Source: Candidatus Kapaibacterium sp.
GTDB lineage: Bacteria; Bacteroidota; Ignavibacteria; Kapaibacteriales; Kapaibacteriaceae
DNA: 58,940 nucleotides
Assembly: GCA_030833725.1 (NCBI GenBank)
Contig: JAURGP010000007.1
Coordinates: 1-58,940 of the forward strand
Direction of reading: 5' to 3'
Under the pieces are notes generated by a model. The model was not told the DNA's origin and did not search any database. It saw only the letters and a list, made by a program, of their open reading frames with translations. Positions 27,194-52,654 of the stretch are shown here, piece after piece. Positions within the stretch are counted from its first letter, which is position 1. The number at the start of each line of letters is the position of its first letter. The position numbers and the translations under genes were made by a program.

Positions 27194-28573
27194 CTACTTC
27201 ACGCTCTCGGTAAAGAGACCGGTTGCAAACTCGACAAAGGTGCGTGCATCAAGGTATCCGTACACAGCCGTCACGCGGTTGATCCGTGCCGTGATGAGCT
27301 GAAAGTTGGCCTGCTGGACTTCCACGAGTTGGGCACCTCCTACCGTGAAGCGCTCCTGCATGGCGTCGAAGTTGAGCTGAGCCGTACGCAGCGCCCGCTC
27401 AGTAATGTCGAGGTTCCGCTCCGCAGTGCGCAATTGGAGGTAGGCCGACCGTACGTTCTGGCGTAGCTGCTGCTCCAGACGGGCAACTTCGAGACTCCGT
27501 TGCGTATGCTGGAATGTGGCACTGGCGATTTGCTGGTTGGTGCGGAACTGGTCAAACACCGGCATCTGCAGATTCAAGCCCACGAACCACTGCCCTTGAT
27601 TGTCGAAGTTTGAGAACTCGAAGTTCCGCCACACATATCCTCCAGTGGCTTGAAGCGTCGGGTAGTATCCTGCCGTGGCCGAGGTGACGGTGGCCTGTGC
27701 GGCTTCCTCACGATCTTGGGCAGCTCGCACGTCCGGTCGGGAGGCCATGGCGCGATCGATGGATTGCTGCTCCGAACCGATCGTTGTGCGGAACTCCTCC
27801 ACCTGCAAACTCGTGGCTTCGCTGGGAAGTACGGCTGGATCAAACGTCGCGTTCTGCGTGGGATCGACGTTCATCAGCGTCAAAAGGTTCACCTTGGCCA
27901 GATCGTGGTCGTTCTCTGCCTGCACCACGGCCACCTCTTGGTTGGCAACCTCCGTCTCCTGCGACGTCAACTGTGTGATCGGTGCCCTGCCGTTGTCGTA
28001 CAGCGCTTTCACACGCTCAAAGGTGGCCCTGCTGAGCGAAAGATTCTCGGAACGCGCACGCACGACTTGTTCGGTGCGCAGTACATCGATGTAGGCCCGA
28101 GTCACGTTAAAGGCAATGGCCAGTCGCTGGAACAGAATATCGGCTTCAGCAGCTGAAACGGCGCTGCTGGCGGCATCATAGTCGGCCTCGCGTCGAAAGC
28201 CATTGAAGAGTGTCCAGCCAACGTTCAAGTTTGCGCTATACGTATTGGGAAGGGGCTCACCGCGAATGGGAACACCGTTCACAATCGAGATCTGCTCGCG
28301 TAGGTTCGTGAGCTGTCGGTTGTAGTTGAATCCGAAGTTCGCCGCCGGCAGGTACTGACCGAAGGCCTGTGTCAGGTTGGCCGCTGCGGCCTGTGAGCTG
28401 GCATACACCTGCCGCACGTCGATGTTACGTTGCAGGGCGATAGCAATGCAGTCGTCGAGAGTGTAGCGCAGCTGCTCACCGGACTGCGACCACGTCTGCT
28501 GACCGACCACGGGATGCGTCAGGCCAATCAGGATCGACGTTACAAGAAGTATTAGAGATGTTCGCATAGGCAT
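27194..28573 (-). CDS. TolC-family outer-membrane efflux protein
   Basis: A 459-residue outer-membrane channel. The signal peptide ends near HPVVGQQ. Two repeats of the OEP fold are visible, each with long heptad helices (YTLDDCIAIALQRNIDV at the start, then the long helices around AEADILFQRLAIAFNV and LEVARLEQQLRQNVRSAYLQL). It should be the exit duct of the MacAB-like exporter encoded just downstream. I chose ATG 28573 (MPMRTSLIL) since the frame before it lacks a signal peptide; ATG 28567 is an alternative. A TAACTTTC sequence 30 bases upstream may be its promoter. Confidence 0.92.
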   Translation of the reverse strand: MPMRTSLILLVTSILIGLTHPVVGQQTWSQSGEQLRYTLDDCIAIALQRNIDVRQVYASSQAAAANLTQAFGQYLPAANFGFNYNRQLTNLREQISIVNGVPIRGEPLPNTYSANLNVGWTLFNGFRREADYDAASSAVSAAEADILFQRLAIAFNVTRAYIDVLRTEQVVRARSENLSLSRATFERVKALYDNGRAPITQLTSQETEVANQEVAVVQAENDHDLAKVNLLTLMNVDPTQNATFDPAVLPSEATSLQVEEFRTTIGSEQQSIDRAMASRPDVRAAQDREEAAQATVTSATAGYYPTLQATGGYVWRNFEFSNFDNQGQWFVGLNLQMPVFDQFRTNQQIASATFQHTQRSLEVARLEQQLRQNVRSAYLQLRTAERNLDITERALRTAQLNFDAMQERFTVGGAQLVEVQQANFQLITARINRVTAVYGYLDARTFVEFATGLFTESVK

Positions 28574-45380: not shown

Positions 45381-45707
45381 TCACTTGCCGTCTTCGTGCG
45401 TCCGATCGCGGTACTGACAGCAGTTCGGCAACTTCGCATAGGCAGCATCGTTACCCTTTTGGTTTTCCACGTCGTAGCCAGCGGCAAGGATGGCATTGAC
45501 AATGGCGGTCGAGTCCGCCACGGAATTGTCGAAGGTTGCCGTGAAGAGCTTCGTGTTTTTGTCCCAGGATGCATCACCCACGCCACGCACACTCTCGGCG
45601 GCGCGGACAATCTTTTTCTTGCAGGAATTGCAGTTCCCCGACACCTTGACGGTCATCGTCTGATTGGTGGCAAACAGCAGAGCTGTCAGCAGAAGAGCGA
45701 CGTGCAT
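45381..45707 (-). CDS. Exported heavy-metal-associated (HMA) domain protein
   Basis: A 108-residue protein with a short signal peptide followed by one HMA domain. The metal-binding CxxC is in GNCNSCKKKI (Cys26 and Cys29), with SVRGVGDASWDKNTKLFTATFD as in MerP/CopZ-like folds. It may bind Cu+ or another soft metal in the periplasm. It is divergent from the RND adaptor gene with 63 bases between, so a shared control region is possible. The promoter box TAACTTTG is 33 bases upstream. Confidence 0.85.
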   Translation of the reverse strand: MHVALLLTALLFATNQTMTVKVSGNCNSCKKKIVRAAESVRGVGDASWDKNTKLFTATFDNSVADSTAIVNAILAAGYDVENQKGNDAAYAKLPNCCQYRDRTHEDGK

Positions 45708-45770: not shown

Positions 45771-46853
45771 ATGAAACCACGAATCCTGTCGATCGTTATT
45801 GGGCTGCTGGTCATAACAGCGGTCTTGGTGTGGAAATTCCAGCCCGCGGACACCCCTGTCGGAAGTGGCGGTGCATCGGCTGGTCCAGGGCCGGGAGGCG
45901 GTAAGCCCCTTGCCGTTCTGGCCATGGTCCTCCAACCCCAAGCCTACACCGAGTCGGTGACCCTCACGGGGTCGATCGTTGCCAACGAGGCCGTGGTGAT
46001 TCGCCCGGAGGTGTCGGGACGAATCGTGGCGGTTGGCTTCTCCGAGGGACAGCGCGTGGCTAAAGGACAGATGCTCGTGCGCTTGTTCGATGCCGATCTA
46101 CGGGCTCGGTTGAAGCAGGTTCTTGCCCAAGTGGCACTGGATTCCTCGCAGGTTGATCGGTTGAAGCGTCTGCGTGCCGTAGACGGCATTAGTGCCGAGG
46201 AGTTTCAGCGGGCGTCGGCCACCTTGGAGATGCATCAAGCCCAGGCCGACGAGATTCGAGCGCAACTTGAGAAGACCACGATCACCGCACCGTTTGCCGG
46301 ACGTGTGGGTCTGCGCAATGCCAGCATAGGTGCCGTGGTAGGTCCTACCTCCGATATCACGCTTCTGCGGGATGACTCGCAGCTCAAGGTGGAGTGCACC
46401 GTCCCTGAGAAGTATGCCACCACCATCGCCGTTGGCACAGAGATGACCTTTTCCGTGAGGGGATCGCGAAGTACGACAACCTACCGGGCCCGCGTGTATG
46501 CCGTGGATCCGGAGCTTAATCCGGAATCCCGTACGCTGCGCATTCGTGCGATGATTGCCCAGCCGACCGGTTTACTACCGGGCATGTTCGCCGATGTGAC
46601 CGTTCAGCTGGCAACGCTACCCGATGCGCTGTTGGTCCCCACAGAGAGTGTGGTGGTAGACATCAACGGTCCGAAGGTGTTTGTGAAGAACGGTGGTGTT
46701 GCTCGACAGGCTCGCATTACCACGGGCACGCGCACGCAGACCGACATACGGGTGATGGAAGGGTTACTGCCTGGCGATACGGTCCTGACCACGGGAATGC
46801 TGGTGATGAAGGATGGCCTGCCGATCAATGTGACGGTGGAGTCCGCACGATGA
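45771..46853 (+). CDS. RND efflux periplasmic adaptor
   Basis: A 360-residue membrane fusion protein that links an RND pump to its outer-membrane channel. One N-terminal membrane helix (LSIVIGLLVITAVLVW) precedes a Gly/Ser/Pro-rich linker and a lipoyl half VVIRPEVSGRIVAVGFSEGQRVAKGQ, a short coiled-coil hairpin (~110-160), the second lipoyl half TITAPFAGRVGLRNASIGAVV and beta-barrel domains. This is the MdtA/MexE-like type. Its stop overlaps the start of the pump gene (ATGA). Confidence 0.93.
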   Translation: MKPRILSIVIGLLVITAVLVWKFQPADTPVGSGGASAGPGPGGGKPLAVLAMVLQPQAYTESVTLTGSIVANEAVVIRPEVSGRIVAVGFSEGQRVAKGQMLVRLFDADLRARLKQVLAQVALDSSQVDRLKRLRAVDGISAEEFQRASATLEMHQAQADEIRAQLEKTTITAPFAGRVGLRNASIGAVVGPTSDITLLRDDSQLKVECTVPEKYATTIAVGTEMTFSVRGSRSTTTYRARVYAVDPELNPESRTLRIRAMIAQPTGLLPGMFADVTVQLATLPDALLVPTESVVVDINGPKVFVKNGGVARQARITTGTRTQTDIRVMEGLLPGDTVLTTGMLVMKDGLPINVTVESAR

Positions 46854-49800
46854 ACCTCTCTACCCTCAGTATCCGCCGACCGGTACTTGCCATCGTGATG
46901 AGTACCGTGATCGTTCTCCTCGGAGTGGTGGGGGCTACCTTCCTGGGTGTGCGCCAATTCCCGGATGTAGACCCACCCGAGATTACGGTGCAGACCACCT
47001 ACACCGGCGCAAGTGCGGAGGTCGTCGAGTCACAGATTACCGAGCCCCTTGAAGAATCCATCAATGGTATCGCCGGGATTCGATCCGTGACATCTTCCAG
47101 TTCGTACGGGCGAAGCTCTATTACGGTGGAGTTTGAGTTAGGCGTCGATCTTGAAACAGCTGCCAACGATGTGCGCGACCGCGTAGATCAGGCACGCCGC
47201 CGACTGCCGGCGGATGTGGATCCTCCGCAGGTGTCAAAGTCGAATGCCAACTCGAGTCCCGTGGTGATCATGTCCGTGTACTCCACGAAGCGATCGCTGA
47301 TGGAGGTCAGCGAATACGCTGCTACCACGCTCAAAGAGCGCCTGCAGACCATCGAAGGTATAGCCGAAATCGTCATCTGGGGCGAGCGTACACCAGCGAT
47401 GCGGGTGGTACTGCAACCGGCCAACATGGCCGCCTACGGCATGTCGCCCAACACGGTGCGCACTGCCCTCCAGCGTGAGAACATCGAGCTGCCTACCGGG
47501 CGAGTGGAAGGCATGAGCACGGAGCTCACACTCCGTACAAAAGGCCGACTCTCTACCATCGAAGAATTCGAAGACGTGATCCTCCGATCGGACGAGCGGG
47601 GAGTAGTGCGCCTTGCCGACGTCGCCCAGATTCGCCTCGGCGCTACCAATGAACGCACGATCCTCAAGCGCGACGGCGTACCGATGGTAGCCATGGCCGT
47701 TCGGCCTCAACCGGGAGCGAACCAGGTAACGATTGCCACATCCTTCCGCAAGCGTGTTGATGAACTGCGGCCACAGGTACCGGCCGACATCGCGCTCGAG
47801 ATTCGGTATGATGCCTCAAAATTTATCAATGCGGCGATTTCGGAAGTGATCGAAACGCTGGCAATTGCCTTCGGGCTGGTGATCGTGATCATCTTCCTCT
47901 TCCTGCGGAACTGGCGCGCAACCTTCATTCCCGTGATTGCCATACCCGTGTCGCTTGTGGCATCATTCTTCGTGATGTGGATTGGCGACTTTTCCATCAA
48001 CCTGCTGACGATGCTCGGCATTGTGTTGTCGACTGGTCTGGTGGTGGATGATGCGATCGTGGTGATGGAGAACATCTACAAGCGCATTGAGCGAGGCGAT
48101 GATCCCGTCAAGGCTGGCGACGAAGGCTCCTCGGAGATTTACTTCGCCATCATCTCTACGACGATTACCCTGGTGGCGGTCTTCGTACCAATCATCTTTC
48201 TACAGGGCTTAACAGGGAGACTCTTTCGCGAATTCGGCTTTGTTGTGGCCACGAGCATCGTGGTGTCGGCCTTTGTGTCGCTGACGCTTACGCCCATGAT
48301 GAGTACGCGGCTGCTGCGGCGCCAGGAGCAGACCGGCGCATTGGAGCGTGCCACGGAGCCGTTCTTCCAGTGGTTGAATCAACTCTACGACAGGACGGTA
48401 CGATGGTCTGTGGATCATGCCTGGATTGCCGCGCTGTTTATGGTGATTTCTGCCGGCGTGATCTGGCAGGTTGGTGGTGGACTGCCATCGGAAGTGGCTC
48501 CACTGGAGGATCGCAGTCAGTTGCGCATCATCGCGGTGGCACCCGAGGGGTACACGTACGAGCGGATGGATGCCTTCCTCGACAGCTTCCGAGCCACCGT
48601 GGAGAGCCTCGTCCCAGAGAAAGAACTCGTGTTGACGGTTACCTCGCCGAGTTTCATTGGTAGTGGCACGAACTCTGGCTTTGGCCGGATCCAGCTTACC
48701 GACCCAGCGCTGCGCGAACGCTCGCAGATGGAGATCGCCGATCAGCTGACCGCTGCCATGCGCAGCAATCCGGAAGCTCGCACCATCATCCAGCAGGAGC
48801 CGACGATTTCCTCCGGCTTCGGGGGAGGGGGCTTGCCAGTACAGTTTGTGATTCAAGCGCAGGAGTTGGCAGACCTGCGACGAGTAATTCCCGTGTTTAT
48901 GGATGCGGCCAATGCGAGCCCTCTCTTCAACATCGTGGACTGCAACCTGAAGTTCACCAAGCCAGAGCTCTCGCTGCGCATCCGCCGAGATCGCGCTCGT
49001 GAGCTTGGCGTGTCGGTTGCCGATATTGCCGAAGCTCTCCAGGCAGGATTCTCGTCGCAGCGGTTTGGATACTTCCTGCGCGGTGGCAGGCAGTACGACG
49101 TGATTGGAGAAATCGATCGGTGGCAGCGCATGACGCCAGAGGAGATCATGGGGCTCACCATTCAGGCCCGTGACGGCTCGCTGGTGCAGCTCACGGACCT
49201 TGTGACGCTCACCGAAGAGAGCTCGCCACCGCAGCTGTATCACTACAATCGTGCAATGAGTGCCACGATCAGTGCCGGACTCGCACCAGGTGTGACGATC
49301 GACAAGGGCATCGCCGAAATGGACCGTATTGCTCGCGACGTCCTCGACGACACCTTCACTACGGCTCTATCGGGACCATCACTCGATTTCAAGCAGAGCT
49401 CGTCGAGTATCCTGTTCGCCTTCGTGCTGGCTCTTGTGCTCGTCTACCTTGTCCTTGCTGCCCAGTTCGAGAGCTTCGTTGATCCGCTGATCATCATGCT
49501 CACGGTACCCCTCGCACTGGCCGGTGGCGTTGTCTCGCTTGCCACACTCGATCAAACGCTGAACATCTTCAGTCAGATCGGTGCGATCGTACTGATCGGC
49601 ATAGTCACCAAGAACGGGATCCTGATTGTGGAGTTTGCCAACCAGCTCCGGGATCGCGGTGCATCGTGGCACGATGCGGCCATCCAGGCCGCGTCGATGC
49701 GATTCCGGCCGATTCTCATGACATCGGCCGCGACCATCCTGGGAGCCCTGCCGATTGCCTTGTCGCTGGGGGCGGCGTCGGAGTCGCGCGTCGGATTAGG

Positions 49801-51208
49801 GGTTGTGGTAGTGGGCGGCATGATCTTCTCGACTGTACTCACGCTCATCGTCGTGCCCAGCTTGTACGTGCTACTCAGCAGGATCAAGCGTTCAGCTGTT
49901 GTTGCTGGAGCACTGTTGGTGTTGGCCTTGCCCGTGGCCGAGGCGCGTGATATCCGTGATATGCCAGATACGCTTACGTATCAGCAGGCCGTAGCTGCTG
50001 CTCTAGAACAGAACTTCGGTGTTCGCGTCGCGCGACAAGACTCGCTGCTGGCAGAGAATGTTGGAGCGACTGCCATTTCAGGTTTTCTGCCGCGACTAGA
50101 TCTCTCTGGACAGTACATCGACGGTGCGAACGACATCACGCAGCGCTTAGCTGATGGCAGAACCATCAACCAAGATGCAGTGGGCTACTCCAATCTTCAG
50201 GCCAACGCCGTACTACAATGGACCCTCTTTGACGGACTACGCATGTTTGCGACCGCCGATCGCGCGGCGGCCCTGAAGAGTGAGGGGATGGCGTCCGTCC
50301 GTGCGCGAATGCAGTCGCTGATAGCCGATGTTCTTACGGCCTACAATACGATCGTTGCCACACAACGCTTCTTGCACACGGCCGACAGCGCGCTGTTGCT
50401 GGCCGAGGAGCGCTACCGCTTGGAGCGTCATCGGTACGATGCAGGCACGGTCTCTGGCGTTGAAGTTGCGCAGGCTGAGATTGATCGTAACAGTCAGCGG
50501 GCCCTCGTCATCCAAACGCGTACCGATCTGGCGGTTGCGAAGTCCGCACTGAACACGCTCTTGGCACGAGATCCTGAGACGGCCTTTAGCGTGCCCTCTG
50601 AAATCAGTATTCCACCGATGCCTTCACTCGAGGAGATCTACGCACAGATCGACGCGGCAAATCCGGAGGTGATCCGTGCTCGCTACGCGCTGCAGGCAGC
50701 ATCGGCCCATGTGCGCGAAGCCACTGCCGCGCTGATGCCACAGATCGGTGTGCAAGGGGCCTACCGACTCAGTCGCGCCACGTCGGACGGCGGCTTCTTT
50801 TTAGAAAACCTCTCCAACGGTCCAAGCGTGGGGGTCACGTTTCAGTGGAATCTGTTCAACGGTCTGGCAGATCGGTACGAGCGAGAGCGCCGGATCATCC
50901 TGGAGCAGCAGCAACAGCTGAGCGAACAGTCGATCCGCAATGACCTGCGCGGCAGTGCCGAGCGCACGTTACGCATGTACACGGCCTCGGGTGAGCTCCT
51001 TGCTATCCAACAGCAGTCCTACGCGGCGGCTGAGCGCAATGCGATGGTGGCACTTGAGAAACTGCGAGTAGGCAGCATCACCCCACTTGAAGTGCGCCAA
51101 ACCTTTCAGACACTTCTCGAAGTGGGGGCACAGGTAGCTCAGCTGGAGTATCAACAGCGGCTTGCTGCGACTGAGATTCTGCGAATCAGCGGCAGGCTGA
51201 TGGACTAG
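46850..51208 (+). CDS. RND efflux pump fused to a TolC-type outer-membrane channel
   Basis: A single 1452-residue open frame. Residues 1-1010 are a complete HAE1/AcrB-like RND permease: the proton-relay GLVVDDAIVVMEN in TM4, the TM10 lysine in GIVTKNGILIVEFAN, and two periplasmic porter/docking regions. Residues 1011-1032 (RIKRSAVVAGALLVLALPVAEA) look like a signal peptide with an AEA cleavage site, directly after TM12. Residues 1033-1452 are a full TolC/OEP domain with two long-helix repeats. There is no stop or frameshift, so the fusion is in the sequence as given. RND pumps end in the cytoplasm, so the hydrophobic junction would carry the TolC part across the membrane, perhaps followed by cleavage. 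Coupled to the adaptor upstream. Confidence 0.93.
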   Translation: MNLSTLSIRRPVLAIVMSTVIVLLGVVGATFLGVRQFPDVDPPEITVQTTYTGASAEVVESQITEPLEESINGIAGIRSVTSSSSYGRSSITVEFELGVDLETAANDVRDRVDQARRRLPADVDPPQVSKSNANSSPVVIMSVYSTKRSLMEVSEYAATTLKERLQTIEGIAEIVIWGERTPAMRVVLQPANMAAYGMSPNTVRTALQRENIELPTGRVEGMSTELTLRTKGRLSTIEEFEDVILRSDERGVVRLADVAQIRLGATNERTILKRDGVPMVAMAVRPQPGANQVTIATSFRKRVDELRPQVPADIALEIRYDASKFINAAISEVIETLAIAFGLVIVIIFLFLRNWRATFIPVIAIPVSLVASFFVMWIGDFSINLLTMLGIVLSTGLVVDDAIVVMENIYKRIERGDDPVKAGDEGSSEIYFAIISTTITLVAVFVPIIFLQGLTGRLFREFGFVVATSIVVSAFVSLTLTPMMSTRLLRRQEQTGALERATEPFFQWLNQLYDRTVRWSVDHAWIAALFMVISAGVIWQVGGGLPSEVAPLEDRSQLRIIAVAPEGYTYERMDAFLDSFRATVESLVPEKELVLTVTSPSFIGSGTNSGFGRIQLTDPALRERSQMEIADQLTAAMRSNPEARTIIQQEPTISSGFGGGGLPVQFVIQAQELADLRRVIPVFMDAANASPLFNIVDCNLKFTKPELSLRIRRDRARELGVSVADIAEALQAGFSSQRFGYFLRGGRQYDVIGEIDRWQRMTPEEIMGLTIQARDGSLVQLTDLVTLTEESSPPQLYHYNRAMSATISAGLAPGVTIDKGIAEMDRIARDVLDDTFTTALSGPSLDFKQSSSSILFAFVLALVLVYLVLAAQFESFVDPLIIMLTVPLALAGGVVSLATLDQTLNIFSQIGAIVLIGIVTKNGILIVEFANQLRDRGASWHDAAIQAASMRFRPILMTSAATILGALPIALSLGAASESRVGLGVVVVGGMIFSTVLTLIVVPSLYVLLSRIKRSAVVAGALLVLALPVAEARDIRDMPDTLTYQQAVAAALEQNFGVRVARQDSLLAENVGATAISGFLPRLDLSGQYIDGANDITQRLADGRTINQDAVGYSNLQANAVLQWTLFDGLRMFATADRAAALKSEGMASVRARMQSLIADVLTAYNTIVATQRFLHTADSALLLAEERYRLERHRYDAGTVSGVEVAQAEIDRNSQRALVIQTRTDLAVAKSALNTLLARDPETAFSVPSEISIPPMPSLEEIYAQIDAANPEVIRARYALQAASAHVREATAALMPQIGVQGAYRLSRATSDGGFFLENLSNGPSVGVTFQWNLFNGLADRYERERRIILEQQQQLSEQSIRNDLRGSAERTLRMYTASGELLAIQQQSYAAAERNAMVALEKLRVGSITPLEVRQTFQTLLEVGAQVAQLEYQQRLAATEILRISGRLMD

Positions 51209-51262: not shown

Positions 51263-52654
51263 ATGTCAACCCGTATTGAACACGACACCATGGGCGAAAT
51301 CGAGGTCCCCTCGACGGCCTACTACGGTGCTCAAACAGCTCGATCCCTGATCCACTTCGCCATTGGTGAAGAACGCATGCCCCGCGAAGTAGTAGCGGCC
51401 ATGGCCATCCTCAAGAAGGCTGCCGCGATGGTCAATCGCGACCTAGGTGTGTTGAAGAGTGAAACAGCAGCCCTGATCGTACAAGCCTGCGACGACGTTG
51501 TTGCCGGTACACTCGATGAGCACTTCCCGTTGAAGGTGTGGCAGACGGGCTCCGGCACCCAGACGAACATGAACGTGAATGAGGTGATCGCCAACCGCGC
51601 GATCGAGATTGCCGGCGGCGAGCTTGGCTCCAAGAAGCCCGTTCATCCGAACGACGATGTCAACAAGTCACAGTCGTCGAACGATACCTTCCCAACGGCC
51701 ATGCACATCGCAGCGGCACTGAGTGTGTCACACAGCGTGCTGCCGGCCGTGCGTGCCCTGCGCGATACGTTCGCAACCAAGGCCGAGGAGTTCGCGCCGC
51801 TCATTAAGAGCGGCCGAACACACTTGATGGATGCGACACCAATCTCGCTGGGGCAGGAGTTTTCCGGCTATGTGCAGCAGCTCACCAACGGGATTCGTCG
51901 TCTCGAGCAGTCGTTGGAAGGTCTCTACGAACTGGCACTTGGTGGGACAGCTGTCGGAACCGGGTTGAATACGCATCCGGAGTTCGCCGAGCGCTCGGCT
52001 GCAACCATCGCTTCGCTTACGGGACTTCCGTTTGTGAGTGCGCCAAACAAGTTCGAGGCACTCGCTGCTCACGATGCACTGGTGTACGCTCATGGCTCGC
52101 TGAAAACGCTAGCAGCATCGCTGATGAAGATTGCCAACGACGTGCGCTGGATGGCATCGGGTCCGCGTTGTGGCCTCGGCGAACTCAGCATCCCGGAGAA
52201 CGAACCAGGCTCCTCAATCATGCCAGGGAAGGTCAACCCAACGCAGAGTGAAGCCATGACGATGGTGGCAGCACAGGTGATGGGCAACGACGTTGCCATC
52301 AATATTGGCGGAGCATCTGGAAACTTCGAACTCAACGTGTTCAAGCCTGTCATCATCTACAACTTCCTGCAGAGCTGTCGACTGCTCGCCGATACCTGCA
52401 CGATGTTCAACGAGCACTGTGCTGTTGGCATCCAGGCCAACGTGGATCGACTGAACTTCTACAATCAAAACACGCTGATGCTGGTAACGGCGCTGAACCC
52501 GCATATCGGCTACGATAATGCTGCCAAGATTGCCAAGACTGCTCATAAGAATGGCACCACGCTGAAAGTGGAAGCACTCAAGCTGGGTCTGTTGACGGAA
52601 GAGCAGTTCGACACCTTGGTTCGCCCGGAAGACATGCTTGGTCCCAAGGCCTGA
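51263..52654 (+). CDS. fumC: Fumarate hydratase class II
   Basis: A 463-residue TCA-cycle enzyme converting fumarate to malate, homotetrameric and independent of iron-sulfur. The fumarase/aspartase signature [12 protein letters not shown] is at residues ~316-327, with [17 protein letters not shown] and the [11 protein letters not shown]-like [12 protein letters not shown] in the active site. I chose ATG 51263 ([13 protein letters not shown]). The TTG 36 bases upstream would place 12 extra residues ahead of the family start. A TAGTTTTG promoter box lies 33 bases upstream. Confidence 0.97.

Follow-up and report, generated by a model that had tools for sequence, protein, structure and literature searches.

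The window is a stretch of 58,940 nucleotides from the draft genome (92 contigs) of a Candidatus Kapaibacterium sp. It contains one open frame that encodes an RND pump followed by an outer-membrane channel (Table 1). The gene of a periplasmic adaptor lies directly upstream, and its stop codon and the start codon of the fusion gene share four bases. A fumarase gene with its ATG at 51263 lies downstream. The N-terminal motif of this fumarase was found in 11 of the 21 loci checked in the bacterial family (7 fused, 4 split), many of the family loci being too short to tell. Next to the adaptor gene, the reverse strand (45381-45707) encodes a small protein that looks exported and whose GNCNSC motif is of the kind seen in heavy-metal-associated domains. 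A further OEP gene occurs on the reverse strand at 27239-28459, within a frame of 511 aa.

Table 1. Features of the pump-channel locus (window coordinates)
Feature	Position	Strand	Basis or description
Periplasmic adaptor (MFP, RND_mfp family), own gene	45771..46853	+	TIGR01730 220 bits vs cut-off 94.9; HlyD_D23
RND-OMF polyprotein gene	46850..51208	+	single open frame, 1,452 aa
RND permease part, HAE1-like, residues 1-1010	46850..49879	+	ACR_tran at 4-1009; RND_permease_2 1,050 bits
In-frame GTG (Val1007), possible internal start	49868..49870	+	sequence
Signal-peptide-like internal segment, residues 1011-1032	49880..49945	+	sequence; alignment with the signal peptides that begin the channels of split relatives
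TolC-family outer-membrane channel part, residues 1033-1452	49946..51205	+	OEP; model and PDB fold matches

The pump part spans positions 2-1020 of the 1021 in the Pfam profile ACR_tran (PF00873) and scores 946.5 bits, over the cut-off. Its best NCBIfam match, RND_permease_2 (NF033617), is under the curated cut-off of 1,250 bits, and the match to TIGR00915 (741 bits) misses the cut-off of 940. Because these HAE1 subfamily cut-offs were missed the pump is labelled HAE1-like. The CusA/CzcA profile TIGR00914 gives 363.7 bits against a cut-off of 701.45, and by its profile scores (1,050 versus 364 bits) the pump is HAE1-like rather than of the metal type. Asp400-Asp401 and Lys921 presumably sit at the places of the RND proton-relay residues.

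In the channel part, OEP (PF02321) matches two stretches (159.6 bits over the whole protein), the best being residues 1044-1238. The cut-offs of both TIGR01844 (TolC; 115 bits, cut-off 225) and TIGR01845 (NodT; 58.5 bits, cut-off 210) were missed. A structure model of residues 985-1452 predicts a TolC fold (mean pLDDT 79.8, pTM 0.64) in which the first equatorial helix begins at approximately residue 1044. In a PDB fold comparison the channel model matches 1ek9 (E 8e-19, TM-score 0.71). At E <= 0.001 there are 44 PDB matches, and their titles name TolC/OprM/OprN/CusC-type channels in all but seven chains: six bear only the title 'a membrane protein from Pseudomonas aeruginosa', and the title of the seventh consists of keywords only. 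The preliminary description of a complete AcrB-like permease (1-1010) joined to a TolC domain (1033-1452) without a stop agrees with the frame, the Pfam matches and the model.

Between the two parts lie residues 1011-1032, RIKRSAVVAGALLVLALPVAEA (window 49880-49945). The segment consists of RIKR, a hydrophobic core and AEA, with a predicted cut before Arg1033.

Fused and split genes among relatives

We examined 23 genomes of the family and read the junctions from the sequence. Pump and channel are fused in 13 (G000, which is the window's own genome, G002, G003, G008, G009, G010, G013, G015, G016, G017, G018, G019 and G021), among them the same-genus G002 at 81% identity. The pump stops before the channel in seven (G004, G005, G006, G012, G014, G020 and G022), and contig ends interrupt the locus in G001 and G011. 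In G007 all matches were more distant, none reaching 1e-200. The preliminary description had considered that close relatives might all carry two separate genes; they are mixed, 13 fused and 7 split. Homologues with the same junction, for which it had asked, do exist, and the charged-hydrophobic-small-x-small order is kept in the fused relatives. In G003 the fused gene is followed by a second piece that resembles the end of the channel (L034:9769-10047).

The fused label needs three changes on the pump tree (33 rows) and three on the channel tree (29 rows). On supported branches, the split G004/G005 nest beside the fused G003 and G009, and the split group G012/G014/G020/G022 nests beside the fused G016. 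G006 groups with split pumps from the order. These trees fit a simplest history of one fusion followed by two re-splittings. Two split clades are nested within the fused clade and therefore the parts appear to work as separate proteins. The channels of the re-split relatives begin just 5' of a signal peptide that aligns with the fused junction.

None of 11 loci from relatives in Saprospiraceae, Runella, Balneolaceae, Cyclobacteriaceae and Flavobacteriales is fused. The channel adjoins the pump in four; the other seven have no channel within the stretch examined, which was cut short in two. Among 1,205 plasmid records with a match to the protein, a single one, from Parabacteroides distasonis, reaches 80% coverage, and it encodes pump and channel separately.

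Fusions also involve other pumps and channels. An AcrB-type pump and a NodT-type channel share one frame at L054:709-5268 (-), L055:186-4733 (+) and L105:254-4816 (+). L054 scores over the cut-off for both TIGR00915 (1,161 bits) and TIGR01845 (344 bits), and L055 and L105 were assigned by Pfam. Frame lengths hinted at many more HAE1-NodT fusions; the 20 loci read comprised 19 split and one fused (L105), and frame length was therefore not relied on. An adaptor-pump fusion, likewise suspected from frame lengths, was absent from both loci checked (L182, L183). In L056-L060 an HAE1-like pump is joined to a TolC-type channel, with low-complexity linkers of 58-117 residues ahead of the internal signal.

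Metal-pump fusions are common: 71 rows span both domains in the 158 genomes searched, a few of them with stops. The preliminary description had named CzcA-TolC fusions as known in Bacteroidota; in each of the 58 metal-pump junctions examined the frame stays open between pump and channel. Nearly all carry a similar signal, so the cleavage signal is not distinctive of the HAE1-like fusion. The metal-pump tree (17 fused and 10 split rows) needs five changes, at least three of which are forced by well-supported branches. At L200, the channel of a split metal pump has a lipoprotein-like start (LLLGC), unlike a signal peptidase I substrate.

Sequence character of the junction

The junction evolves faster than the parts that it joins. 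In three close pairs, dN/dS is 0.25-0.35 at the junction versus 0.02-0.03 in the pump and 0.05-0.08 in the channel, and dN at the junction (34-38 codons) amounts to 11-25 times the pump value and 3-10 times the channel value. The G000-G002 pair was dropped; its dS is saturated and its pump segment takes in upstream codons. Even so, all 13 family junctions retain positive residues and a core together with a small-x-small candidate. Short in-frame repeats lie in or beside the signal segment in G002 (Ala-Thr, L004), G009 (Thr, L011) and G017 (Val-Ile-Thr/Ser, L005), which suggests that slippage is tolerated there.

A total of 86 RND-channel junctions were compared: 13 from the family, 5 from the HAE1-like fusions with linkers of 58-117 residues, 3 of the NodT type and 65 of the metal type. 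They were anchored on TM12 by pattern, and eight that the pattern missed were placed by hand. A candidate cut site was found in 82 of 86, the four without one under the rule used being one HAE1-like and three metal-type junctions. By a published rule, Bacteroidetes signal peptidase I substrates expose Gln past the cut, and the Q-value of Ignavibacterium album is 77% (PMC5837995). Consistent with this rule, Gln follows the candidate site in 70 of 86 junctions (family 9/13, HAE1-like 3/5, NodT-type 0/3, metal-type 58/65), counts that are not independent because the junctions share descent. The same combination occurs in 0/19 TM1 controls and in 1, 1 and 2 of 86 shuffled junctions. A generic signal-peptide pattern is unspecific, since all 19 TM1 controls and 17, 19 and 13 of 86 shuffled junctions pass it; the Gln position alone discriminates. 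When the cut-site filter is left out, the first Gln past the core is preceded by A/S/G in 65/84 junctions versus 220/933 Gln of the channel body (Fisher 8e-23, uncorrected for relatedness). Split TolC-type channels have the candidate plus Gln in 15/19.

The window itself departs from the Gln rule, as AEA is followed by Arg1033. It has the basic features of a signal peptidase I substrate, namely a charged n-region, a hydrophobic core and small residues at -3 and -1, a pattern that is unspecific taken alone. Its genome has a single LspA gene and two adjacent genes for signal peptidase I (G000:C22:9682-11056, reverse strand).

The junctions of the three NodT-type fusions all end in a lipobox: LQSC (L054), LQSC (L055) and LGSC (L105). 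Split NodT channels have a lipobox-like Cys in 19/19 under a loose pattern. Judged from these motifs, TolC-type channels go with Gln and NodT-type channels with a lipobox, so that the signal type depends on the channel subfamily. This is expected if each signal serves its own peptidase, and L054, L055 and L105 predict internal lipoprotein processing. An internal signal peptide, as first proposed for the window, thus gains support from comparison: the drifting junction stays signal-like, the signal peptides of split relatives align with it, and the signal type tracks the channel.

Possible routes from one frame to two proteins

We propose that the gene encodes a secretory polyprotein which passes through Sec and is cut by signal peptidase, yielding pump and channel 1:1, and give this reading a probability of about 0.75. 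Its observed basis is the single frame, the conservation in relatives, the signal-like junction and the presence of signal peptidase I genes. From these we infer Sec re-entry, cutting and a benefit of 1:1 synthesis. Translation would start once, at 46850, directly behind the adaptor gene. The pump would enter the inner membrane via Sec and leave its C-terminus in the cytoplasm. Approximately eight residues past TM12, segment 1011-1032 would act as a second signal peptide, re-engage Sec and carry the channel part to the periplasm. Signal peptidase I would cleave after Ala1032, with a short hydrophobic tail staying on the pump. The freed channel would reach the outer membrane, trimerise and dock on a pump of this kind. 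The two parts, which assemble 3:3, would thus be made 1:1, while the adaptor, needed at six, has its own gene.

The alternative that fares best, though unlikely, is internal initiation, in which ribosomes also start in frame at GTG 49868, the channel is an ordinary preprotein and the fused form is minor or abortive. The product of this start would be M-LLSRIKRSAVVAGALLVLALPVAEA, a textbook signal peptide, and the GTG is the sole ATG/GTG/TTG-type codon from the end of TM12 to the hydrophobic core in the window. Ten of 13 family junctions have one of these codons between TM12 and the core, but just one of the 13 has ATG; ATG is found there in 28/65 metal-pump junctions and in 3/3 NodT fusions. 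None of the three codons occurs in 3/13 family junctions (G003, G013, G019), 1/5 HAE1-like, 0/3 NodT-type and 21/65 metal-type junctions. Internal initiation at ATG, GTG or TTG therefore cannot be general, and the GTG leaves room for it in the window. This GTG encodes a Val of the pump for which relatives use GTC, GTT or Ile instead, and no ribosome-binding motif was seen upstream of it; the lineage, we assume, may not rely on such motifs. In the absence of a stop codon any ribosome that completes the pump still makes the channel.

It is quite improbable that the chain stays uncut, in which case the segment would form a 13th transmembrane helix and the two parts would function while tethered. 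The single open frame would allow this, as would the hydrophobicity of the segment, which suffices to cross a membrane; the model places the segment, at low confidence, inside one helix. However, the geometry is adverse. PMC8277102 gives the RND periplasmic part a height of 40 + 30 A and the channel alpha-barrel one of 100 A; the equatorial domain, from which the N-terminus of OprM emerges, sits at mid-barrel. Even with direct docking the channel N-terminus would thus lie approximately 120 A above the membrane, an estimate from E. coli and Pseudomonas structures. The window has about 11 residues between the predicted cut and the first helix, in a linker modelled at low confidence, and several relatives have fewer. 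A tether looks far too short because some 11 residues (approximately 40 A stretched) cannot bridge this distance, and an uncut chain would demand a different architecture. The small-x-small-Gln pattern at junctions, the lipobox of the NodT fusions and the repeated re-splitting also argue against it. The preliminary description had offered two outcomes, of which cutting by signal peptidase fits the junction sequences, whereas a tether across the periplasm (about 11 residues versus well over 100 A) does not.

That another periplasmic protease parts pump from channel is still less probable. Nothing specific favours it beyond the lack of the usual Gln at the window's site, and against it the signal, Gln or lipobox, tracks the channel subfamily. 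An assembly or sequencing artefact, conceivable in a draft of 92 contigs, has next to no likelihood and is refuted by relatives: the in-frame fusion recurs in 13/23 family genomes including G002, which excludes a one-off sequencing error and leaves no sign of the stop or frameshift near 49880 that the preliminary description had contemplated.

Relation to known systems

The CusA/CzcA-TolC fusions of Bacteroidota resemble the window in having an RND pump and then a channel in one frame with a signal-peptide-like junction. They differ in their metal-type pump; two that were tested score 1,159 and 1,190 bits with TIGR00914, over the cut-off, and the window with 364 bits is below. AcrAB-TolC and MexAB-OprM, the HAE1 tripartite systems, have the same three parts and the TolC fold, and the gene order of mexAB-oprM is adaptor-pump-channel as in the window. 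In these systems, however, pump and channel are encoded by two genes. No fusion occurs among the solved chains compared, the best 60 of 90 (longest 1,069 aa) and a further 7 (longest 1,055 aa).

The cytochrome b/c1 polyprotein FbcH of Bradyrhizobium joins an inner-membrane and an exported protein and is cut at an internal signal sequence. Its second part stays at the inner membrane, whereas the channel of the window would go to the outer membrane. In virus polyproteins cut by host signal peptidase, internal signal sequences likewise part the products, but the enzyme is that of a eukaryotic host and the products are capsid and envelope proteins. The relevant passages of PMC5837995 leave aside fusions with internal signal peptides, and TolC and RND have 0 occurrences there. 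The literature searched, a scope that leaves out most subscription journals, contained nothing recognisable as describing an RND pump fused to its channel through an internal signal peptide.

Taken together, it is likely, at slightly lower confidence than for the window itself, that Bacteroidota make secretory polyproteins whose RND pump and outer-membrane channel are parted by an internal signal peptide; whether this is of the signal peptidase I or II type would depend on the channel. The layout would have arisen several times (in at least two HAE1-like lineages, the NodT type and the metal pumps). It was repeatedly undone and therefore fused and split forms would be interchangeable. Annotations that name the pump alone hide channels. 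If this reading is true, these proteins would be to bacteria what virus polyproteins are to viruses, with an inner- and an outer-membrane protein obtained from a single chain, and signal peptidase (Lgt and LspA for the lipobox form) would act on signals that lie beyond residue 1,000 of a chain. It would also mean 1:1 synthesis for a machine that needs pump and channel 1:1.
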